From contig JAQBNO010000110.1 in NCBI GenBank assembly GCA_028288485.1, positions 1-64,000 of the forward strand: a DNA stretch of 64,000 bases, given 5' to 3'. Below, in pieces: positions 33,692 to 44,576 of the stretch. Source of the stretch: Segetibacter sp. (GTDB lineage Bacteria > Bacteroidota > Bacteroidia > Chitinophagales > Chitinophagaceae). The translations under genes and the position numbers were made by a program. Position 1 is the first letter of the stretch; each line of letters opens with the position of its first letter. The notes under the pieces were generated by a model, which was not told the DNA's origin, did no database searches, and worked only from the letters and a program-made list of their open reading frames with translations.

Positions 33692-34417
33692 CTAAATTCC
33701 AGCACCGTGAACGTGCAAACCGCATTCTTTTTTACCACTGTCTTCCCACCACCACCGGCCGGCCCTGAAGTCTTCACCTTGTTTTATCGCCCTGGTACAT
33801 GGCTGACAACCAATACTGACAAAGCCCCGGTCGTGTAAAATATTATAAGGGATGTTATACTTGGCAATAAAAGATTTTACTTCTTCAGTCGACCATCGTA
33901 CGATTGGGTGATACTTAATCAAGCCGTTCACCTCATCCCATTCAAAAGGCTGAAGGTCGTGGCGGTTTGGAGAATGCTCGGCGCGAAGACCAGTTACCCA
34001 AATCGAATTTCCTTTTAATGCCCTTCTTAAAGGTTCAACTTTACGGATATGGCAGCACCCTATACGGTTTTCAGGCGCTTCGTAAAAGGAGTTTGGTCCT
34101 TTTTCAGTAACAAAAGGTTGAAGCAATGAATTATCAGGGTAATAAACGTCGATAGTAGCATTATACCTTTCAATGGTGCGGCTCCATACTGAATAAGTTT
34201 CAGGAAAGAGGCGACCTGTATCTAACGTAAATATTTTTATCGGCAGATTATTTGAAAGTATGTAATGGGTAATTATTTGATCTTCCCAGCTAAAACTGGT
34301 GGAAAAACAAACCTGCCCCGGGTATGACAGCGCCAGCTGTTCAAGCATTTCTTCTATTGAGATTTCGCCAGCACGGGTCTGTAAAACAGATATATGATTG
34401 GATAGTTGTTCAGTCAT
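33692..34417 (-). CDS. cysH: Adenylylsulfate (APS/PAPS) reductase
   Basis: Reduces activated sulfate to sulfite with thioredoxin as donor. The 241 residues contain CFSTSFSWEDQIITHYI, the TGLRAEHSPNR loop, and the C-terminal catalytic C232 in KECGLHVHG. Two cysteine pairs (GCCHIRK and GCQPC) are those that hold a [4Fe-4S] cluster in assimilatory APS reductases; E. coli-type PAPS reductases lack them. I therefore expect APS as the substrate. It is the first gene of the sulfur cluster and has a strong promoter. ATP sulfurylase genes (cysD, cysN) are not in the window. Confidence 0.93.
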   Translation of the reverse strand: MTEQLSNHISVLQTRAGEISIEEMLEQLALSYPGQVCFSTSFSWEDQIITHYILSNNLPIKIFTLDTGRLFPETYSVWSRTIERYNATIDVYYPDNSLLQPFVTEKGPNSFYEAPENRIGCCHIRKVEPLRRALKGNSIWVTGLRAEHSPNRHDLQPFEWDEVNGLIKYHPIVRWSTEEVKSFIAKYNIPYNILHDRGFVSIGCQPCTRAIKQGEDFRAGRWWWEDSGKKECGLHVHGAGI

Positions 34418-34445
34418 TTTAAGCCAACATTAATATTTGGAGGTG

Positions 34446-34477
34446 CAAAATTAAGGGAGAATTATTCGTCTACCAAA
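34446..34477 (-). promoter_or_regulatory. Promoter of the cysH sulfur cluster
   Basis: On the minus strand TTTG, exactly 20 bp, then TAATTTTG: a full match to the Bacteroidota consensus TTTG-N19/20-TAnnTTTG. The -7 element ends 28 bp before the cysH ATG. Confidence 0.7.
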
Positions 34478-34648
34478 TGAGTAGGGTTCTGCAACGTTAA
34501 CAACTACCCAAAACACAGCTGCAACCCTCACCAAGTAGTACGATATTTCACTTACTAAACCCCCCGATCTAAAAAAAGACCTATTGTTTATCTTAAAACT
34601 GAACTCACCATATAATTCAAAAGATTTTTAAAATCGTTTCTTAACTTT

Positions 34649-34656
34649 TACTTTTG
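34649..34656 (+). promoter_or_regulatory. Candidate -7 element for the J-domain gene
   Basis: TACTTTTG fits TAnnTTTG and would leave a leader of about 65 bases. The rest of the 34418-34727 gap shows only this and the cysH promoter. Confidence 0.35.
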
Positions 34657-34727
34657 TTGCAACCAGCAGGAACTTGTTTTCTATATTCATTTCGACACAC
34701 GTTTATTTCGAGTAACCACAATTCCAG

Positions 34728-35669
34728 ATGAAAAATTACTACCAGATATTAGGCATCCAGGAAACTGCTTCGAAAGAACAGGTGAAAAAGGCATATAAGC
34801 AACTCTCTCTGAAATACCACCCCGATAAAAATAATGGCGATCATTTCTATTCAGAATTGTTTAAAAACATAAATGAAGCAAACCAGGTTCTTTCGAACGA
34901 TTCAAAAAGGGCAGAATATGATTTTTTATTGAATGACTATTTTCATCATATCAGAAAATGGCAACAGTCTGATGCTAAAAGGAACGAAAGAGGTTTCGCT
35001 GGAAATGAAAAAGTCAGGAATCGTTTATTTAAGGCAGGATGGTTAGCGGGAGGACTGGCAGTAGTAAGTCTTCTTTTATTGCTTTTAATTGAGAAAGAAA
35101 TTATCCCAAACGTTTTTGAAACACCCCAGGAAGTAGATATCTTAAACCTGAGACTATTAAAAGATGAAACGGTAACTGAACCTCGGTTGAAAGATCCGGT
35201 AAAAAAATCACCGCTACCCGGAAAAATTGAAATGAAACATATTTATTCTTCGATAGTTCATCGCAAGAAACAGCCGAAACCCGATCAAAAAAAGTCGACC
35301 GTGTTTAAGGTAAGTGAAATAAAAAAGACGGATTCACCATATGTACGGGCTCAAAAACTTCCTCAAACTAAACCGGCACAACAAGCATTGGCGCCTAAAG
35401 AAAGTATTGAAAAGATCTTAACGGAGCAACAAATGATTAACGTTTACAACGATATAACTAACAAAAAAAGGGATTTTCATAATGCATCGAACTGCGTAAA
35501 GATCTTTAAAACAAATAACTGCAACATCAAAAATGCTTTCGCAATAGCTACATTTTTACAGCGCAAAGGATTTACAATCGCTGGCCGTGAAAAGTCGGGG
35601 AATGATGCAATAGGGATTAATATTGCGGCAACTCATAACTGTATTACTGTCACCATGGGGGCACTGTAA
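34728..35669 (+). CDS. Membrane-anchored J-domain protein
   Basis: A 313-residue protein with an N-terminal J-domain (1-70; HPD at 31-33 in LKYHPDKNNGDHF), one membrane helix (about 104-121, LAGGLAVVSLLLLLL) and a C-terminal region of unknown fold (about 125-313) rich in Lys, Pro and Gln, with a Cys-containing end (NASNCVKIFKTNNCNIKN). The J-domain should recruit DnaK to the membrane. It is not DnaJ itself: there is no G/F or zinc-finger region. With the J-domain in the cytoplasm, the C-terminal part would be in the periplasm. The patatin gene follows after 174 bp on the same strand, with its own candidate promoter. Confidence 0.8.
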   Translation: MKNYYQILGIQETASKEQVKKAYKQLSLKYHPDKNNGDHFYSELFKNINEANQVLSNDSKRAEYDFLLNDYFHHIRKWQQSDAKRNERGFAGNEKVRNRLFKAGWLAGGLAVVSLLLLLLIEKEIIPNVFETPQEVDILNLRLLKDETVTEPRLKDPVKKSPLPGKIEMKHIYSSIVHRKKQPKPDQKKSTVFKVSEIKKTDSPYVRAQKLPQTKPAQQALAPKESIEKILTEQQMINVYNDITNKKRDFHNASNCVKIFKTNNCNIKNAFAIATFLQRKGFTIAGREKSGNDAIGINIAATHNCITVTMGAL

Positions 35670-35790
35670 TTCTTCCTTTTTTTACTGTAAGACCAGTTTC
35701 TTAACCCTCTATCTCTTGCGCCGGCTACAGTTCAATACACTTCTCTTTCAACTCATTGCCCAATATGTACTGCGGTCTAAAACTCCCGAT

Positions 35791-35798
35791 TATTTTTG
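35791..35798 (+). promoter_or_regulatory. Candidate -7 element for the patatin gene
   Basis: TATTTTTG fits TAnnTTTG, 45 bp before the ATG. No clear -33 element is seen. Confidence 0.35.
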
Positions 35799-35843
35799 AT
35801 GTATGAAATAATCAATCTATCTTAAAACCCTAAAACCAGCTAT

Positions 35844-36995
35844 ATGAGTATTTGGGGACCACTAAAAGATCGTTATGAAACGAAGCAACCACGTAAAATT
35901 CTATCGATAGATGGTGGGGGCATCAGGGGAATTGTTGCCCTGGGAATGCTCGCCGAAATGGAAAGCCAGTTAAAAAACAAACTAAAAAGGGGCAGCGATT
36001 TCCGGTTATGCGACTATTTTGATTATATAGGAGGAACCAGTACCGGTGCTATAATTGCGTCTGGCCTATCAATCGGCTTATCCGTACAGGAACTCCTTAA
36101 CTATTACCTCGACAAAGGGAAGCTGATGTTCGACAAGACTTTCATATTGAAACGTTGGAAGGCCTTATACGAATCGGGCCCTATTCTACAAAGCCTTAAA
36201 GAAACTTTTGGCGCAGATACGGATCTTACTTTAAACAATGGTAAATATAAAAGCTTACTGCTTGTGGTGGCTATGAACAGAACGACCGACTCTCCGTGGC
36301 CAATCAGCAATAACCCCTTAGCAAAATATAACAACCCCGACCGACCCGATTGTAACGCAAAAATCAAACTCTATCAATTAGTAAGAGCGAGCTCGGCGGC
36401 GCCCGTCTTTTTTCCTCCCGAAACGTTGCAATGGGATCCCAACGATGATGATAAAACTTTTGTTTTTGTAGACGGAGGCGTTTCGCCTTACAACAATCCC
36501 GCCTTTTTAATGTATCGTATGGCCACTCAGCCTGCCTACAACCTTAACTGGGAAACAGGTGAAAATAAACTGCTCATCATTTCTGTAGGAACCGGTGCTG
36601 CAGTCAGTACCGGTGAATATAGTAACATTCTCGATACTGCTCAGAACTTACCCAACAACCTCTTGTACGCAATGGCGGTTGACCAGGATATTAACTGTCG
36701 TACCGTTGGTCGCTGTACTTATGGCGCTCCTATTGACCGCGAGTTGAGATATATGATACCAATGGACAAACACGGAAATATCAGTCCGCTATCGCAAGAT
36801 ACAGATCGGCATTTTCTTTATGCCCGATACAATGCAGACCTAAGTACTGAAGGATTGAAAGAACTTGGTCTCGAAAACATCAAATCAGAAAACGTGAGGA
36901 AAATGGATACAGTTGATTATTTAGACGAGCTGCAAGCAGTTGGAAAAGCGGCTTCAAAACAGGTAGATCTTGCTCACTTTGGGTCTTTTGTTTAA
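35844..36995 (+). CDS. Patatin-like phospholipase
   Basis: Predicted lipid acyl hydrolase of 383 residues, cytoplasmic or membrane-associated, with no signal peptide. The full patatin signature is present: oxyanion glycine motif SIDGGGIRG (21-29), nucleophile Ser66 in GGTSTGAI, and the dyad Asp210 in VDGGVSPYNNP; all catalytic residues are kept. Patatins of this kind serve as membrane-damaging effectors in several prokaryotic immune systems (for example CapV in CBASS), but also as ordinary lipases. The next gene on the same strand, 341 bp on, is the DRHyd-TPR-SLOG protein. No nucleotidyltransferase or cyclase gene lies nearby. Confidence 0.9.
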   Translation: MSIWGPLKDRYETKQPRKILSIDGGGIRGIVALGMLAEMESQLKNKLKRGSDFRLCDYFDYIGGTSTGAIIASGLSIGLSVQELLNYYLDKGKLMFDKTFILKRWKALYESGPILQSLKETFGADTDLTLNNGKYKSLLLVVAMNRTTDSPWPISNNPLAKYNNPDRPDCNAKIKLYQLVRASSAAPVFFPPETLQWDPNDDDKTFVFVDGGVSPYNNPAFLMYRMATQPAYNLNWETGENKLLIISVGTGAAVSTGEYSNILDTAQNLPNNLLYAMAVDQDINCRTVGRCTYGAPIDRELRYMIPMDKHGNISPLSQDTDRHFLYARYNADLSTEGLKELGLENIKSENVRKMDTVDYLDELQAVGKAASKQVDLAHFGSFV

Positions 36996-37044
36996 TGAGT
37001 ATAAACTCTTTTTGGTACCCGCTTTTGGTATTTCATAGCATCAT

Positions 37045-37066
37045 CGTTGCGTCGCAATCACTTCAT
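37045..37066 (-). repeat. Dispersed repeat copy, hybrid of the two core types
   Basis: Minus-strand TGATTGCGACGCAACG: the TGCGACGCAACG half is intact, while the other half resembles the GTGAGTGA variant. It lies just after the patatin gene. Confidence 0.6.
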
Positions 37067-37157
37067 CGGCAGAATAATGAGCAACATTTTTAATTGGATG
37101 TTACTCATCGTACTCTAAATAGTTTTCGTACTTCTACATTTTGCAAAAAGGCAAAAA

Positions 37158-37240
37158 GTACAAGAGTGCCGCCCTTCTACAAGGCCAGGGTAAACTACCA
37201 CCCTGAACAACGTGTTACAGTACAAGCGAGCGTGGCAACG
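37158..37240 (+). repeat. Two dispersed repeat copies ahead of the DRHyd-TPR-SLOG gene
   Basis: GTACAAGAGTGCCGCCCTT starts at 37158, and a second copy, GTACAAGCGAGCGTGGCAAC, starts at 37220; the second matches 22436-22456. With the inverted copy at 37045 they fill the 36996-37336 gap, which has no gene. An open frame runs through them into the next gene but is unlikely to be translated. Confidence 0.6.
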
Positions 37241-37336
37241 GCTGCTGAAAAAAGAGATAAAGCTGGTAACAAAATAACCACTCAAAGAAGCAACTGGAAC
37301 TTTATTGAATTCAAAAAAATCTCTACGATTACAAAT

Positions 37337-39334
37337 ATGGAAGCTTTTATTGTTCGCCCTTTTGGTATAAAACAGGATGTGGATTTCGAAAAAGTACATA
37401 ATGAACTAATTATGCCTGCTTTAAAAAAAGTTGGCATTAAAGGAGGTACGACAGCACCAATTGTTGAGCAGGGCAACATAAGAGAAGACATGTTTTCGAA
37501 ACTGCTAACTGCTGATCTCGTTATTGCAGATATCTCTATTCACAACGCTAATGTGTTCTACGAATTGGGTATCAGGCATGCATTACAGGATAAACGAACA
37601 TTTTTAATTCGAAGTGCAAAAGATGAGGTTCCATTTGACCTTAAAACCGACCGGTATCTAAGTTATGATACGGCTAATCCTGCTGACAGCTTAGATGCAT
37701 TAGTAGCAGGTCTTAAGGCTACAATGCTATCGGACAGGCAAGACAGTCCTGTTTTTTACATGCTTCCAAAACTGGAAGCCCAGGACAGGGAACGTTTTTT
37801 AGCAGTCCCTTCCGATTTTGGAGAAGAAGTGGAAATTGCTAAAGAAAGCAGGCAAAAAGGAATGTTAGCTTTGTTAGCTGCAGAGGCAGAAGGATTTCCG
37901 TGGATCATACCTGCCTTGCGTGTTGTAGGAAATGCGCAGCACAGCCTGAAAGCGTATGAAGTAGCGCGAATTACCTGGGAAAAGATTCGGGATATTTATC
38001 CAAACGATCTTGAAGCGAACGACCGCCTTGCCACTATATACCAGCGACTTGCAGAAGGTGAAATGAAGTTGGATGCAACATCAGGTAAGGAACTGCTGGC
38101 AAAATCGGACATCGCAATTAGTCGGATGCTTGAAAATTATACAAAGCTTGATAAGTGGAAACGCGCCGAAGTTTATTCATTAAAAGCCCGCAACACCAAA
38201 TTCAGGTGGATAGACAACTGGAGGTGCGTACCCGCCGATAAAACCAGGAAAACTGCTTTACAGTCCAAATTCCTTGTTGAAGCTTACCAGGATTATGAAC
38301 GCGCCTATCATGAAGACTTAAACCATTTCTATTCAGGCGTTAATGCCCTTGGATTACTTACGGTGCTTATTAGCCTTGCAGATAGCCTTCCCGATGATTG
38401 GCTGGAAGAATTTGATACAGATGACGAAGCTTTATCAGAACTAAAAAAGTATAAAGACAAGCAACAAAAGTTGTCGACGGTGGTGCAAACCTCGGTTGAA
38501 GCAGAAAAGAAAAGATTACAACGCGAAGGAAAAAACGATCCGTGGGTAACTATTACAGAAGCCGACCTGAACTGCCTGATTTCGAAAAAGCCATCACGTG
38601 TAGCTAATTTATACCGGGATGTACTGCTCGCCGCAGACGAACAAAACTTCGATTCTACCAAAAGGCAATTGGAAATTTATAAAGAATTGGGAGTATTGAC
38701 AGAAAATATAAATGCTGCACTTGCAGAATTCCAGTTACCGGAAAAAACTGATGAAGGTAAAACACATTACCTCCTGTTCACCGGTCACATGATTGACCAA
38801 AAAGACAGGAAAGAGCCGCGGTTTCCGGCTTTGAAAGAGGCCCCGGTTAAGGCAGCCATAAAGGAAGCCGTGGAAAAAGAAAAAGAAAAAACAAACCGAA
38901 AATTAAAAGGAATTTCGGGGGGAGCGTGTGGCGGCGACATTTTGTTTCACGAAGTATGTGCTGAATTAGGGATCGAAACAGAACTGTTCCTGGCACTTCC
39001 AAGGGAAAAGTTTATCCAGGAGTCAGTGGAGTTTGGTGGTGTTGAGTGGATAGAACGATTCGACAAACTGTTTAATAAACTTCGCAAACGCTATTTATCA
39101 CAAAATAAAGAGCTCAATAAATGGTTGCAGAGAAAAGAGAATTATTCAATCTGGGAACGCAATAATTTATGGATGTTGAATAGCGCACTCGATTGTGGTG
39201 GCATGCAAATGACATTAATTGCTTTGTGGGATGGAAAGGGAGGAGACAACGTTGGCGGAACTGAACACATGGTAAAAGAGGCAAAAGACAGGGGAAGTAA
39301 GGTAGTTGTTTTAGACGTTAACAAGATAGGTTAG
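37337..39334 (+). CDS. DRHyd/TIR-like, TPR-scaffold and SLOG-like three-part protein
   Basis: A 665-residue cytoplasmic protein. Residues 1-135 resemble the nucleoside deoxyribosyltransferase/DRHyd (TIR-like) fold: MEAFIVRPFG, ADLVIADISIHNANVFYELGIRHAL, with the glutamate E76 of YELG matching the catalytic position of that superfamily. Residues about 150-470 are all-helical and TPR-like, in the manner of the MAP3K TRAFs-binding (ASK1) scaffold. Residues about 473-665 look like a SLOG Rossmann domain: LLFTGHMIDQKDR, PRFP, GGACGGDILFHEVC, and LPREKFIQESV. The ATG at 37337 is chosen because the conserved domain begins there; the open frame extends 81 codons further up through repeats. It may act as a nucleotide or NAD-derivative sensor or enzyme. 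The partner candidate is the patatin. Confidence 0.8.
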   Translation: MEAFIVRPFGIKQDVDFEKVHNELIMPALKKVGIKGGTTAPIVEQGNIREDMFSKLLTADLVIADISIHNANVFYELGIRHALQDKRTFLIRSAKDEVPFDLKTDRYLSYDTANPADSLDALVAGLKATMLSDRQDSPVFYMLPKLEAQDRERFLAVPSDFGEEVEIAKESRQKGMLALLAAEAEGFPWIIPALRVVGNAQHSLKAYEVARITWEKIRDIYPNDLEANDRLATIYQRLAEGEMKLDATSGKELLAKSDIAISRMLENYTKLDKWKRAEVYSLKARNTKFRWIDNWRCVPADKTRKTALQSKFLVEAYQDYERAYHEDLNHFYSGVNALGLLTVLISLADSLPDDWLEEFDTDDEALSELKKYKDKQQKLSTVVQTSVEAEKKRLQREGKNDPWVTITEADLNCLISKKPSRVANLYRDVLLAADEQNFDSTKRQLEIYKELGVLTENINAALAEFQLPEKTDEGKTHYLLFTGHMIDQKDRKEPRFPALKEAPVKAAIKEAVEKEKEKTNRKLKGISGGACGGDILFHEVCAELGIETELFLALPREKFIQESVEFGGVEWIERFDKLFNKLRKRYLSQNKELNKWLQRKENYSIWERNNLWMLNSALDCGGMQMTLIALWDGKGGDNVGGTEHMVKEAKDRGSKVVVLDVNKIG

Positions 39335-39473
39335 TCAAAAAATGTTCGATCATTCTAAAGTTAAAACAAACGGACTTTCAGAAATTTCGTGGAAAGTTCA
39401 GCTTTTCAGTAGATAAAGTAGCTAATTGCAGTTGAAGAAGCGCAGCGGGAAACTGAAACTGTAAACAGCTGTT

Positions 39474-40886
39474 CTATTGCCCTTTCCATTCAGGGTTCAA
39501 AAGATTGCCATACTTCTCCAAAATTACCCGTAAAGCATCTACCTGGTTCGTTAGTGCTTCCTGCATGCCTACAGCATTTCCGATACCCTTTGCCTGTTCT
39601 AAGGCGTTTTGGTATTCCTCCATATTGCCAAGGCCGAAATATGCTTCCGCCTTATTTACCAGGGTCCAGAACTTCTGCTCGTCCTCCACCATTTGCTGAT
39701 TTTTAAGTACTTCAGCATCCATCACTGCATCCTTCTTGGCATTTTTCGCTTCACGATCGATCACCGCTTTCCAATCTTTTTCGCACATGGCGAGAACATC
39801 TTTCCTGATCCGGTTTGCCCATACCATATCTGCTATTTTCTCTTCTTTCGTTTTGTCGAGAAAACTGGCAGCGCGGCAGTTCAAAAGATAAGCGAGGTTA
39901 ATTCCGTTATATCGATTGTTCAACAGGTAAAATCCGCGTTGAAAAAGTAATATTGCGTCTTCAAGATGATTTTCCCCTTCACCAATCTCGAACAGTTTTT
40001 TCTCGATTGCTCCCGCCAACATAACCGTTTCAGAATCGTTCGTATGCATCAGGTCGAGTTTTTCCAATAATGCATTTGCTTCTATTAATGCTGTTTTTTT
40101 ATCGGCTGTTTCATCTTTATAAGTAGCAAGGGCAAGCCGCTGGTATAAATAGGAGAAATTAGACGTAATGGCTTGCTGGTTGTTGCAGTTCGAAAGAAGG
40201 ATGGCAGAATTAAAGAGCCCTTTTGCACGGGAATAGTTCTTGTTTTTTATTGCCTCCTCGCCCTGTTTTACGATCAGAGACAAAGTTTGGCGTTCTACGT
40301 CTTCATCATGGTCACCGTTTTTAGCAGGAGAGTTTGATATAGCTTCATTCACCTCTGTAGCAACAGCTTCCGCCTTATCTTTGAGAGCAGGGGGAATTAG
40401 ATCATTTAAAAAAGTATATACCGGGCTATCAGGAGTTTCATCGGTTAGAATTGCATCGAGCGTTGCTCCCAATTGCTTTTGAAAACGCAAAACTTCGAAA
40501 TAGTCGAGACTTTCACCCGAATGTTTGTATTTATTAATTTTTATGTGGTTGACATCAAATGGAAGGCACAATTGGTCTTCCGACATCACGATTGTACTTC
40601 TGGGACGTAGAGCGTAGCGAACGCCTAACTCGTAAAATGCGTTGGCGTTCGCGGTAGAAAGATCAGCAACAACTATATCAGCTTTGTACAATTCCTTATA
40701 CATCGGCACATCTATACTTCCCGAATTTGGAATTTCATCTGCCCGTACGCAAATCATTCCTTTACTCTCTATCACAGGTTTTATCAATGCTTCGTAAGAC
40801 ATGTTCAGGTTTAATTTACGACCTGTCGCAAGGTCTGTTTTTATTCCAAAACCCATCACAACAAAACAACGTTTTTTATCTTCCAT
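39474..40886 (-). CDS. DRHyd/TIR-like and TPR-scaffold protein
   Basis: A 470-residue paralogue of the first two parts of the convergent neighbour. Residues 1-150: RCFVVMGFG near the start, ADIVVADLSTANANAFYELGVRYAL with E86 of YELG kept, and LPFDVNHIKINKY. Residues about 185-470 are helical TPR-like repeats; TRAFs-binding-type segments such as NRYNGINLAYLLNCRA are visible. There is no SLOG domain and no membrane segment. The ATG at 40886 opens with MEDKKRC, the usual start for this fold; the frame extends 20 codons upstream without resemblance. It ends 139 bp from the convergent gene. Confidence 0.78.
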   Translation of the reverse strand: MEDKKRCFVVMGFGIKTDLATGRKLNLNMSYEALIKPVIESKGMICVRADEIPNSGSIDVPMYKELYKADIVVADLSTANANAFYELGVRYALRPRSTIVMSEDQLCLPFDVNHIKINKYKHSGESLDYFEVLRFQKQLGATLDAILTDETPDSPVYTFLNDLIPPALKDKAEAVATEVNEAISNSPAKNGDHDEDVERQTLSLIVKQGEEAIKNKNYSRAKGLFNSAILLSNCNNQQAITSNFSYLYQRLALATYKDETADKKTALIEANALLEKLDLMHTNDSETVMLAGAIEKKLFEIGEGENHLEDAILLFQRGFYLLNNRYNGINLAYLLNCRAASFLDKTKEEKIADMVWANRIRKDVLAMCEKDWKAVIDREAKNAKKDAVMDAEVLKNQQMVEDEQKFWTLVNKAEAYFGLGNMEEYQNALEQAKGIGNAVGMQEALTNQVDALRVILEKYGNLLNPEWKGQ

Positions 40887-41207
40887 AACTGTTTGTGTTT
40901 CACCAAGATTAGATGAAAAATTACATAAAAATCCGTAACTATACAAATAGATAAATTAATAAGCCGGAAGGCATAAAAGCAGACAGCCTGCCACACGCCG
41001 ATTTTAGTAAACCAGAAACAATAACTCGCAATACCTGATTAGGTGAAAGGCGCATAAAAATCAGCAAGATGAGATTTCAACTTCAACAACGTGAATATTG
41101 GCTGTACAATTAGGCATGCAGCAAGTAATGATGCAGGTAACAAGTTTATCATATTCTTATCCACTTTAATTATTCAGGCAATGCTATTATAGTGGAAGAC
41201 GGTTCTA

Positions 41208-42194
41208 TTATTTAAACCGGTAGGAAGCGTGGAAGCCACCGAATATATGATAGGTCTCCTGTAACTTGGTTTCCCGGGTTTGAAAAGTAATATGAAAACC
41301 ACCGGAAAGTCTTGGAGTAGAATACATGATTCCTGCTCTTGACGAAAATACCAAAGGTGCACTTTTTGAAACCAATCGTCCTTTATCCGCTCTTAAAAGT
41401 CCGCCTTGCACAGTGGCGTTGTATACCTGGTACGTTAGTTCTGGCTGTAGATAACCAAATAACTCCGTTTTGTAACGAGGCGCCCTACTTTCACTACTTT
41501 GCAATCTCGTGTTCCAGAAACTACTTTCCGACATCGAATTTTGTTTTCCGAATTGAAGCAGAACAGACTGGCTTATGTTGGTATAAATAGTTCCAAGGCT
41601 CGCATTGGAAACTGGCGTAATTTGAAAATAATCTGCGGTGCTGTTTTTAATGAGTGAAAAACCGTAGCTACCCTGTGCATTAATCCCAACTTCATTTTTT
41701 AATCCGTATGCGAACATCCAATCCCAAAAATCACTGTTTATTTTAAGTAAGGGATGGACAGCATCCAAAAGCTTTTGTCCTAGCGACGCGGGCCCAATTG
41801 TTCCGATAGTACCTCCTAACTTAAGGTACCTGTTGTTTTTTGTAAATTGCGATATTGAAAATCCCCCATAGAGATACCCGGTAATGGGGCGATCAAGTTC
41901 GTTCACAACATACACTTCCCTTATGCCGGGGGTAAATATTTTCTGCGACAACTCGTAATTATAAATTGTCTTAATTATACCCGCTCTGTTCCTCTTACCC
42001 AGAAGTGAATAGTTTAATAGAATTCCGTTGGTATAATATCCGTCTGTTCCGCGAAAAGCAAAAGCATCATTATCTATACTATAACTAAACTGCTTATTAA
42101 AATTGTCTGGTTTTACATTTTGAGCCCGAATAGAGGTTGTAATTAAAGTTAAAAAAAGAATAAAAAAAAGGAGTTCAACTCGACCCTCGCTCAT
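41208..42194 (-). CDS. LpxR-like outer-membrane lipid A deacylase family protein
   Basis: A 328-residue beta-barrel with a signal peptide (ending SIRAQ, about residue 25). The LpxR family motif SIDNDAFAFRGTDGYYTNG is seen at 39-57; the pair DND...TDGYYTNG holds conserved active-site residues in LpxR, which removes the 3'-linked acyl chains of lipid A in the outer membrane. The C-terminus ends in an aromatic barrel strand (FHASYRFK). Activity and substrate are inferred. Between it and 40886 the 40887-41207 stretch shows nothing recognisable. Confidence 0.82.
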   Translation of the reverse strand: MSEGRVELLFFILFLTLITTSIRAQNVKPDNFNKQFSYSIDNDAFAFRGTDGYYTNGILLNYSLLGKRNRAGIIKTIYNYELSQKIFTPGIREVYVVNELDRPITGYLYGGFSISQFTKNNRYLKLGGTIGTIGPASLGQKLLDAVHPLLKINSDFWDWMFAYGLKNEVGINAQGSYGFSLIKNSTADYFQITPVSNASLGTIYTNISQSVLLQFGKQNSMSESSFWNTRLQSSESRAPRYKTELFGYLQPELTYQVYNATVQGGLLRADKGRLVSKSAPLVFSSRAGIMYSTPRLSGGFHITFQTRETKLQETYHIFGGFHASYRFK

Positions 42195-42273
42195 ATTCGA
42201 CCGTTTATATTAGAAAAGCTTAAAAAATAATGGTGTAATTTAGACCCGAAGAACAAAAGAGAAAAATATTCTT

Positions 42274-42669
42274 ATGCGTTTACTGATAATGGTGTTTTTG
42301 TTGTCTTTCTTTTTGGCCTGCAGGAAAGAAGATCCCGTAATTGACATAGATCCTCTTATAGGCAAATATTTAACCTGCGATAGCATAAGAACAATAGTAA
42401 ACGGCAACGAAACAGTAACAATAAAAGGGAGAGGAACAGGCTCTGATGTTGTGTTTGATAGTGCAAAAGTCTATACAATTTTTTCCACTCCGCAACAGAA
42501 TTTTTTTTATGGGATCAAGAACCCGAAAATATATTACTGGAAAAGAGGCCTGAGCGTGCACGACGGCGACTATCTGAAAATAAAATCAAAAGAGGGGAAA
42601 AAGATAGTTTTTGAACACAAGGATATTGTAACCCGTAGGCTTGATATTTATTATCATACTGCTCAGTAA
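42274..42669 (+). CDS. Small lipoprotein of unknown function
   Basis: A 131-residue protein with a lipoprotein signal (MVFLLSFFLAC, lipobox LAC). The mature part is beta-rich (VTIKGRGTGSDVVFDSAKVYTIF and FYGIKNPKIYYW), like small lipocalin-type lipoproteins of Bacteroidota. It is divergent from the LpxR-like gene across 79 bp. No function can be assigned. Confidence 0.72.
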   Translation: MRLLIMVFLLSFFLACRKEDPVIDIDPLIGKYLTCDSIRTIVNGNETVTIKGRGTGSDVVFDSAKVYTIFSTPQQNFFYGIKNPKIYYWKRGLSVHDGDYLKIKSKEGKKIVFEHKDIVTRRLDIYYHTAQ

Positions 42670-42729
42670 ACTACCGTTCCTGTTTTTACTGTCTTCTGTT
42701 TAAGCACTGCAATTTTAAACCAGTCGCTT

Positions 42730-42963
42730 ATGAAGGATGTTATTTGTTGCGCATTCTATTCGTGCGTATTATTATTTCTTTTGTGCGCAAGCAGCCTACT
42801 TTTATTCAACATCGTTGTCCGGAATGAATCCCTTTTGCTGATGTCATTCCCTTGTACTTATATAACTACTTTCTTCTGTTTTATCACGAGGGCAATTACA
42901 ACAACTGCGAAAGAATTTCCTAAAAGGAAGTTCTTTGTTTGTAAAAACCAGCAATTCATGTAA
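42730..42963 (+). CDS. Doubtful small Cys-rich membrane ORF
   Basis: 77 codons from an ATG, with two hydrophobic stretches and many cysteines. I recognise no family. It lies 60 bp after the lipoprotein gene on the same strand. It may be a chance frame in a low-GC stretch. Confidence 0.25.
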   Translation: MKDVICCAFYSCVLLFLLCASSLLLFNIVVRNESLLLMSFPCTYITTFFCFITRAITTTAKEFPKRKFFVCKNQQFM

Positions 42964-43501
42964 AGAAGGGGTTTGATCTGCTTTATCCCTTCTGCGGGTG
43001 TACTTATGGATACTCATCATACTCCAATCCTGTCCTTACAGCGGAGGTTCAAAAACAAATTCACCTGTCTTCACAAAACGACATCGGTTTGATTTAAACG
43101 GAATCTAGGACATGTATAAATCTTTGGGGTAGGTTTAAATCACTCTATTTAGCAGAACGGATATTCTACGGTTTAAATACGATGGTCACTGCGTCGTCGC
43201 TTGTATTTGCAAAATATGCCTTACTTCCTGTTCGTAGAGTTTTCCGTTTTTACCGTTTGAACTAAGTTAATAAAGTTTAATATTTTACTGTTAATTGTGC
43301 TTACAATTGGAACTTATTTAGACGACATTTCTGCCGCGTAGCGAACCAGGAAAATCATTGACTGAAGAAGCAGTACAAATTTGATTTACAGCACAGGTTC
43401 AATAGTTTCTTCACCTTTGCTTAGTCTTTTTTGGCACGCAGTTGGTTTTATAAATATTATAATTATATGTTTCAACGCTATTGCATTAAAATCGGGAAAT
43501 C
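42964..43501. other. Non-coding stretch with no recognised feature
   Basis: 538 bp without a convincing gene in any frame. AGAAGGG and CCCTTCT (42964-42970 and 42987-42993) can form a stem just after the preceding ORF, but there is no T run, so a terminator is doubtful. Confidence 0.5.
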
Positions 43502-43651
43502 ATGAATACCAAAAAAACAAAAACGACCGAGACCTTTATTAGGCCCGAACAGTTCGAAGAATATACCAAAAGAGGATTTGTCGTATTTATTGAGCGACCA
43601 ACAGCTTTTGGAACTTTTAAGGCAATCAAAATAGAGTTTATTTCAAAATAA
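43502..43651 (+). CDS. Small hypothetical protein
   Basis: A 49-residue ORF starting with ATG (MNTKKTKTTETF) and containing EEYTKRGFVVFIERPTAF. It is hydrophilic, with no signal or membrane segment, and its composition is protein-like rather than random. No relatives are recognised. The following 196 bp up to the response regulator show nothing. Confidence 0.45.
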   Translation: MNTKKTKTTETFIRPEQFEEYTKRGFVVFIERPTAFGTFKAIKIEFISK

Positions 43652-43847
43652 TTCCCCTTCTCATATTGAAAAATGAAATTCGCGGCAAAAGAGGCTAAAG
43701 CAGAATTATTATGCGATGCCCCACTGTAACAACGTAACTACCGGGAATAACCAGATTTTTATTAAAGTTGAAATTTGTAAAGACCGGAAAGTTTATTTGT
43801 AAACGATGATTCGAGCTAATTGTCCAGCTGGAATTCTCAATTACAAC

Positions 43848-44252
43848 TCAGTCGTCTGAACGGCCGACAACATTCGTTATTGAATTGATTGCGTTGTTCC
43901 AGCCATCGATCGTAGCCGGTTTGGTAATAAATCCACTAATGCCCATTTTAGTGCAATAATCAATATCTTCTTTTGAAGATGAAGTAGTTAAGACTACAAT
44001 AGGAATTGCTTTAAGACGTGAAGAAGACTTTATTTCAAGCAGAATTTCTTTACCGTCTGTTTTAGGAAGATTGAGATCCATAACAATAATTTCCGGTAAA
44101 GTTTCAATTGTCTGAAGATAGGGAAACGCTTTATCTCCTTCCATTATTACCTGCATCCGGTAATCAACTTTGTTTTCGTTTAATGCATCTTTTAATAAGT
44201 CAACATCATCAATATCGTCCTCAATAAGTAAAATGTCGAGGGGTATTTTCAT
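43848..44252 (-). CDS. Single-domain response regulator
   Basis: A 134-residue CheY-like receiver domain with no output domain. Seen: acidic pair E11/D12 in LLIEDDIDD, phospho-acceptor D59 in IIVMDLNLPKTDG, the Thr in VVLTTSSSKEDI and the Lys in GFITKPATI. The form resembles the Rcp1-type receivers that pair with phytochrome or hybrid kinases. No kinase lies nearby, so its partner is unknown. ATG 44252 is used; the frame continues 15 bp to a GTG. Confidence 0.9.
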   Translation of the reverse strand: MKIPLDILLIEDDIDDVDLLKDALNENKVDYRMQVIMEGDKAFPYLQTIETLPEIIVMDLNLPKTDGKEILLEIKSSSRLKAIPIVVLTTSSSKEDIDYCTKMGISGFITKPATIDGWNNAINSITNVVGRSDD

Positions 44253-44403
44253 GCCGTAAAATTGCACTTATTATTTAATCTCAAGAAATATTAGTGAGGA
44301 ATTGCAAGGTACTGATCCATAATTTTCTGTAACAATTAACTTTATTCTTACAAGTACTTATGTCATTGCATCTTCGAACAATAGCTTAGTTGGTTGTTGG
44401 GAT

Positions 44404-44445
44404 GAAAGCTGAATAAAGAGTTTGGGTACAAGTGACTGATGCATC
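44404..44445 (+). repeat. Degenerate dispersed repeat copy
   Basis: GAAAGCTGAATAAAG, then GTACAAGTGACTGATG; the first half matches the copy at 12375. It lies in the 44253-44576 gap next to a terminator, with nothing else seen. Confidence 0.5.
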
Positions 44446-44456
44446 AAGCCGGCTAA

Positions 44457-44493
44457 CAAAAAACGTAAAAGCCTGCAACAGCCTTTACGTTTT
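44457..44493 (-). terminator. Rho-independent terminator after the FAH-family gene
   Basis: The arms AAAACGTAAA and TTTACGTTTT surround a 14-base loop, followed by T residues on the minus strand. It is 84 bp downstream of the FAH-family gene. Confidence 0.7.
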
Positions 44494-44576
44494 CTCGTTT
44501 GATAAAAAAAGAGTTATAACCAGTAATAAAAAAGGAGACTATTTTCTTTGCGGAGTAGAAAAATATCGTTCTAAGC

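Follow-up and report, generated by a model that had tools for sequence, protein, structure and literature searches.

The question raised by this locus is whether a patatin-like phospholipase and two neighbouring DRHyd-TPR proteins, here called D1 and D2, form an immune or stress system, and which of the genes belong to it. The genes lie in a 64,000-nucleotide stretch of Segetibacter sp. DNA (the window), whose positions are used below. The patatin gene (35844-36995, plus strand, 383 aa) follows a DnaJ-domain gene (34728-35669, plus strand; ORF list and Pfam) and precedes D1 (37337-39334, plus strand, 665 aa). D2 (39474-40886, 470 aa) runs convergently towards D1 from the minus strand, which rules out a single operon of all three genes. 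An LpxR homologue (41208-42194, minus strand) lies beyond D2. The open frame of D1 reaches back to a TTG at 37094, but the alignment with its relatives begins at the ATG at 37337. The 81-codon open extension before this ATG (37094-37336) is absent in the relatives, occurred in one copy only in a search within the window, and is probably a spacer.

The patatin, the proposed effector, had been described as intact, and the analysis agreed. The Pfam Patatin match had an E value of 2.6e-28, and by sequence motifs the domain is complete, with the oxyanion loop and the Ser and Asp of the catalytic dyad. The GIRG, GTSTG (Ser66), and DGG (Asp210) motifs were invariant in 13 aligned patatins, of which the L004 copy, cut off by the start of its contig, begins with GIRG. 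Patatin effectors in bacterial immunity are mainly known with cyclic-oligonucleotide signals. The window patatin resembles the effector of CBASS systems of the CapV type: against the PDB it matched a patatin structure (1.9e-22) and CapV (1.2e-20), and it matched the PADLOC CBASS-type phospholipase profiles at 8e-44. Unlike CBASS, the window has no CD-NTase cyclase, and the patatin scored 111.8 bits against NCBI CBASS_lipase, under the cut-off of 200. A PADLOC scan of 43 other window ORFs (E ≤ 1e-10) found no cyclase and no CBASS or Thoeris gene (ThsA/ThsB), as had been stated from the sequence. The same scan matched four models with one ORF each (ShosA twice, PsyrA, and ZorB), which are taken to be putative housekeeping look-alikes.

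D1 and D2 were originally predicted to join an N-terminal YELG domain to a TPR scaffold, and this architecture was recovered in both. The TPR-S family PF20308, with a curated cut-off of 27.6 bits, matched D1 at E 2.6e-9 (38 bits) and D2 at E 2e-13 (51.3 bits); D2 also matched MAP3K_TRAF_bd (E 4.7e-8). The DRHyd-like domain of D1 covers approximately residues 1-138 (37337-37750). The PADLOC TIR-effector profile matched the N-terminal domain of D1 (1.2e-7) and of D2 (3.7e-11), and an alignment of 21 such domains showed D60, D65, N70, N72, E76, G78, and R80 to be invariant. A profile built from the 21 sequences matched DNPH1, a deoxynucleotide N-hydrolase, with E 6.3e-4 over 46 positions and the YELG residues aligned. 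Single-sequence family matches were marginal, with PF05014 found in 6/21 members (best 0.0092) and TIR_2 in 7/21 (best 0.004). The proposed kinship to DRHyd/TIR folds finds some backing in the DNPH1 match, the family matches being marginal, and nothing else in the assignment is as uncertain as the DRHyd fold.

The TPR scaffold of D1 spans residues 157-474 (37805-38758). The D1 model had a pLDDT of 86.6 and a pTM of 0.83, with moderate confidence in the DRHyd domain. The best fold match for the TPR parts of both D1 and D2 was the regulatory region of ASK1, and Foldseek aligned D2 along ASK1 from the N-terminal domain onward. For ASK1, the N-terminal domain and TPRs are described as a regulatory dimer (PMC10972558). 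The likeness is to the N-terminal half of the animal protein, that is, the thioredoxin-binding domain and the TPR regulatory region. Unlike ASK1, neither D1 nor D2 gave a kinase domain match in the Pfam scan, and D1 has a SLOG domain after its TPRs where ASK1 has PH and kinase domains. In this soil bacterium, D1 is built like the sensing half of ASK1 and probably controls a membrane-cutting lipase.

The SLOG domain (residues 475-665; 38759-39331) was missed when D1 was read as a DRHyd domain and a scaffold only. Structure alignment of the model gave this third domain a fold like that of the SLOG protein YpsA, which was not in the Foldseek top 50 for D1 and ranked second by VIA-align, a method that only re-aligns the Foldseek list. 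Both the Rossmannoid YpsA-like fold and a glycine-rich motif are present in D1. The SLOG residues G529, A530, G532, G533, D534, W571, R608, N610, W631, D637, G640, and G641 were invariant in 13 D1 proteins, some of them only about 30% identical to the window D1. According to PMC9503650, the TIR, DrHyd, and SLOG domains form one clade that makes or senses NAD-derived immune signals, YpsA-like SLOGs include cADPR sensors, and ThsA is gated via its SLOG.

Conservation of the linkage in relatives bears on which genes belong together. The patatin adjoined D1 on the same strand in 11/12 other readable full-length D1 neighbourhoods, the exception being L068. These neighbourhoods were L001-L004; L036-L041 and L043, taken from 395 genomes of the phylum; and L068, taken from 298 genomes of the order. 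Any D1 match was present in 40/395 genomes, and matches to the N-terminal part only or the SLOG only were not counted as D1. G254/L042 was excluded since a contig end cuts its D1, and L107 and L108 are repeats of L004 and L002. Several of the linkage genomes are of the same genus, which makes the independent lineages fewer than the counts. The gene order is patatin-D1 in the window and L001-L004 and D1-patatin in L036-L041 and L043. In L003 the pair shares a four-base overlap. A TIR gene lies between them in L041, where the patatin ORF is short (286 aa), and a 173-aa ORF lies between them in L004, where the contig start cuts the patatin.

The reciprocal survey of the 395 genomes found 10 close patatins (E ≤ 1.9e-45; the next match was 1.9e-22). 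Eight, the window included, were beside D1, one was beside a D2-like gene (L052), and one was solitary (L091). The D1-linked patatins formed two groups in the patatin tree, and a tree following the D1 split was not rejected (p-AU 0.132). Patatin and D1 distances correlated over 10 gene pairs (r 0.73), a correlation that shared ancestry alone could yield. The conserved unit is patatin and D1. We read it, at somewhat less than even confidence, as a two-gene abortive-infection (or stress-suicide) module in which NAD or a related nucleotide would trigger a gated lipase; perhaps it is a self-sacrifice defence against viruses. The invariance of the putative catalytic and binding residues (21 N-terminal domains, 13 D1 proteins), a patchy distribution, and conflict-type neighbours favour such a module. 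Against it stand the L068 D1 without a patatin, the solitary L091 patatin, and three of five long plasmid patatins with other neighbours.

The linkage did not extend to D2. A patatin was near only 5/24 D2-like genes (window, L001, L052, L102, and L113), and this rules out D2 as an obligatory third gene. The 24 neighbourhoods were the window, L001, L046-L050, L052, L055, L069-L074, L102, L103, L106, L109-L113, and L198, with only 152 bases visible on one side of L110. L051, a 353-aa DRHyd protein, was left out of the count. Ten further loci were left out for short flanks (L018, L019, L021, L024, L027, L030, L032-L034, and L101), and no patatin was found within these flanks. The exact patatin-D1-D2 arrangement of the window was repeated only in L001. 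D2 is commoner than D1, occurring in 6/298 genomes of the order and 7/10 of the genus. Thus, the original prediction of one set holds for patatin and D1 and fails for D2, which is optional.

These distributions also bear on a different explanation, that the proteins belong to a lipid- or oxidative-stress response and not to defence, with an ASK1-like sensor adjusting membrane lipids. The ASK1 stress-kinase matches of both TPR parts would suit it, and so would the D2 relatives, which often lie in ordinary chromosomal surroundings without a patatin (e.g., L049, L050, and L069). PMC7272460 implicates YpsA in oxidative stress. We consider a stress response quite unlikely in view of the rare and patchy occurrence of D1 (2/298 genomes of the order, 3/10 of the genus), the plasmid relatives among conflict-type genes, and the variability of the chromosomal spot. 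The stretch from the DnaJ-domain gene to the LpxR homologue is flanked by a cysH-side gene run on one side and by pth/L25/prs-type genes on the other, and these flanks hold no defence island. The flanks are syntenic in the congener G591, where the counterparts of the genes at 33692, 44577, and 46798 are 68%, 83%, and 96% identical. Between the same flanks G591 (L081/L082) has approximately 30 kb of other genes, of polysaccharide type by inspection. The spot (window 34418-44576) is variable.

A second kind of linkage was found on a Rhodococcus plasmid (L105), the one fusion locus at which the neighbouring gene was examined. A 479-aa DRHyd-TPR-S gene (TPR-S E 6e-16) lies beside a 560-aa frame whose first part is a SLOG (E 1e-21 and 29% identity to the D1 SLOG) and whose second part is a patatin (42%). 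The public protein starts 46 residues later than this ORF, without the first part of the SLOG, and the 11-base overlap of the two frames depends on the start chosen. Upstream of the pair is a TIR-like/nSTAND1/WD40 gene, in which Pfam identified nSTAND1 and WD40 and inspection suggested the TIR part. A search with the L105 fusion scored 7,999 candidates, of which 5,599 proteins had E ≤ 1e-3. In the best 120 of the 5,599, the patatin motif lay at least 150 residues in for 119/120, and a SLOG-like motif preceded it in 109/120. Most of the listed homologues were 540-580 aa and spanned the whole query. The precomputed SLOG family PF10686 was assigned to 7/120 listed homologues, and a PF10686 scan of three fusions gave 20.3-27.5 bits, under the cut-off of 28.2. 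No match to the SLOG-patatin fusion was found in viral contigs.

The SLOG is therefore found on either partner, as DRHyd-TPR-SLOG with patatin or as DRHyd-TPR with SLOG-patatin. By the Rosetta-stone argument, this suggests that the pieces act together and that the SLOG adjoins the lipase. The patatins of L052 and L113 pair with D2-like DRHyd-TPR-S genes with no SLOG found nearby, so the SLOG is not essential everywhere. Such pairs would be expected if sensing were direct, without a soluble messenger: the TPRs would bind a phage or stress protein and mechanically free the patatin, the DRHyd domain would serve as another toxic effector or play a structural role, and the SLOG would be a lipase adaptor. 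A precedent is the DUF4062 family, a TIR-like anti-phage NADase for which PMC13174449 reports assembly with a phage portal protein. The strict conservation of the SLOG residues and the fusion of the SLOG to patatin, by motif, in 109/120 listed homologues suggest a ligand-binding role instead, and we regard direct sensing as unlikely, though a serious competitor.

In the messenger-gated module that we prefer, D1 would hold the patatin in check at rest. A cue would arrive at the ASK1-like TPR scaffold, and the DRHyd domain, through its YELG glutamate, would cut NAD+ or a related nucleotide at its N-glycosidic bond. The product may then be bound by the YpsA-like SLOG. As the SLOG is the part adjoining the patatin, its ligand-bound form would release or cluster the lipase, and the freed patatin would attack membrane phospholipids until the cell stops. 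D2 may be an optional further sensor of the D1 kind. The shuffling of the SLOG between D1 and the patatin marks it as the candidate physical switch of the lipase. We tentatively speculate that D1 is a self-contained device, with a signal-making DRHyd domain and a receptor SLOG on one chain and an ASK1-like scaffold between them, gating a phospholipase; it would be a bacterial equivalent of the ASK1 input half, with a lipase output in place of a kinase. If so, messenger-gated membrane attack would be extended to the NAD/DRHyd branch, and D1 would provide a simple bacterial model for the stress-sensing part of ASK1. The SLOG-patatin fusion offers a single protein in which the switch could be assayed directly.

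The neighbours of the relatives suggest where else a signal might come from. SIR2-TIR and nSTAND1 genes lie near the patatin-D1 pair in L003 and L004, and L003 also has a SLATT/DUF4231 gene. With L041 and L105, these are loci with TIR, SIR2-TIR, or TIR-nSTAND1 genes beside the module, as might be seen if D1 acted in trans, its SLOG receiving a signal that other proteins of the cell, of TIR or SIR2-TIR type, had made and its DRHyd domain being a non-catalytic binder. No gene of this kind adjoins the module in the window, and Glu76 and Asn70/72 do not vary among the 21 N-terminal domains; action in trans is quite unlikely. TIR genes also adjoin D2-like genes in L103 and L106 (annotated, with DUF4231 genes close) and in L047, L048, and L074 (TIR-like by inspection).

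Predicted TPR-S/DRHyd immune systems, and with them the TPR-S class, were reportedly defined by Burroughs and Aravind in J Bacteriol in 2020. The window resembles such systems in the TPR-S of D1 and D2, the ASK1-like scaffold, and the nucleotide/NAD-type N-terminal domain, and also in the linkage to a predicted effector that the class is said to have. Thoeris (ThsB TIR with ThsA SIR2-SLOG) likewise has a TIR/DRHyd-class domain and a SLOG linked to an effector; unlike Thoeris, the proposed effector here is a patatin and not SIR2, and DRHyd and SLOG share one chain with TPRs. A search of the literature, with most subscription papers, including the 2020 TPR-S paper, outside its range, found neither a description of the patatin-D1 arrangement nor a paper with both "SLOG" and "patatin". 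The identification of a patatin effector with ASK1-type DRHyd-TPR scaffolds was supported by sequence, fold, and linkage, and patatin with D1 is most likely an apparently undescribed variant of the predicted TPR-S/DRHyd systems.

In L068 the D1 relative has no patatin; its row of genes also encodes an AAA ATPase, a DUF4062 protein, and a protein of 1311 aa (L068:8239-16558). This row is the same scaffold in another conflict-type operon. It is like the DUF4062 NADase defence Swarozyc (PMC13174449) in having a DUF4062 gene; unlike the module, it has another NADase domain and the extra AAA and 1311-aa genes. In L044, L045, and L054, proteins of 564-572 aa shared only D1 residues 481-591, within the SLOG, and in L044 and L045 they were preceded in conserved order by a 268-aa gene and a large (1350-1361-aa) gene.

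The window patatin matched 265 plasmid records, five of them over at least 80% of its length. The two closest (46% and 42%) are the Rhizobium and Rhodococcus cases, and one stretch of the Rhizobium plasmid (L102) holds the patatin, a DUF4071 gene, SLOG-like and DRHyd-like genes, and DUF4231. The other three long ones (33%, 29%, and 26%) had no TPR-S gene listed within approximately 5 kb and no D1/D2 match, and one of them is in a CBASS-type operon. L199, a partial plasmid patatin match, had no TPR-S gene or D1/D2 match nearby. No plasmid record matched D1 over 80%. D2 matched 71 plasmid records, four of whose neighbourhoods were examined (L102, L103, L106, and L198). L198 lacks a patatin, and its D2-like gene converges with a separate SLOG-like gene. 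Enterobacterial plasmids commonly carry a TPR-S ("TRAFs-binding") gene, which in L103 precedes two TIR genes and one DUF4231 gene. On the Agrobacterium plasmid L106 a TPR-S gene has several TIR genes around it, together with DUF4231, macro-domain, and DarT-family genes, in a region dense in NAD/ADP-ribose conflict genes.

Among phage records, 36 matched D1, none over 80% of the query, and none of the best 80 of 156 D1 relatives in viral contigs extended beyond residue 231. Staphylococcus and Streptococcus phages carry the DRHyd-like domain by itself (approximately residues 2-119), and the rest of D1 is absent there. One viral contig (L194) carries a partial D2 relative. The record of L001 is titled Williamsia sp. 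(MAG); its genes are Bacteroidota-like (60-71% to those of the window), and it is probably misassigned.
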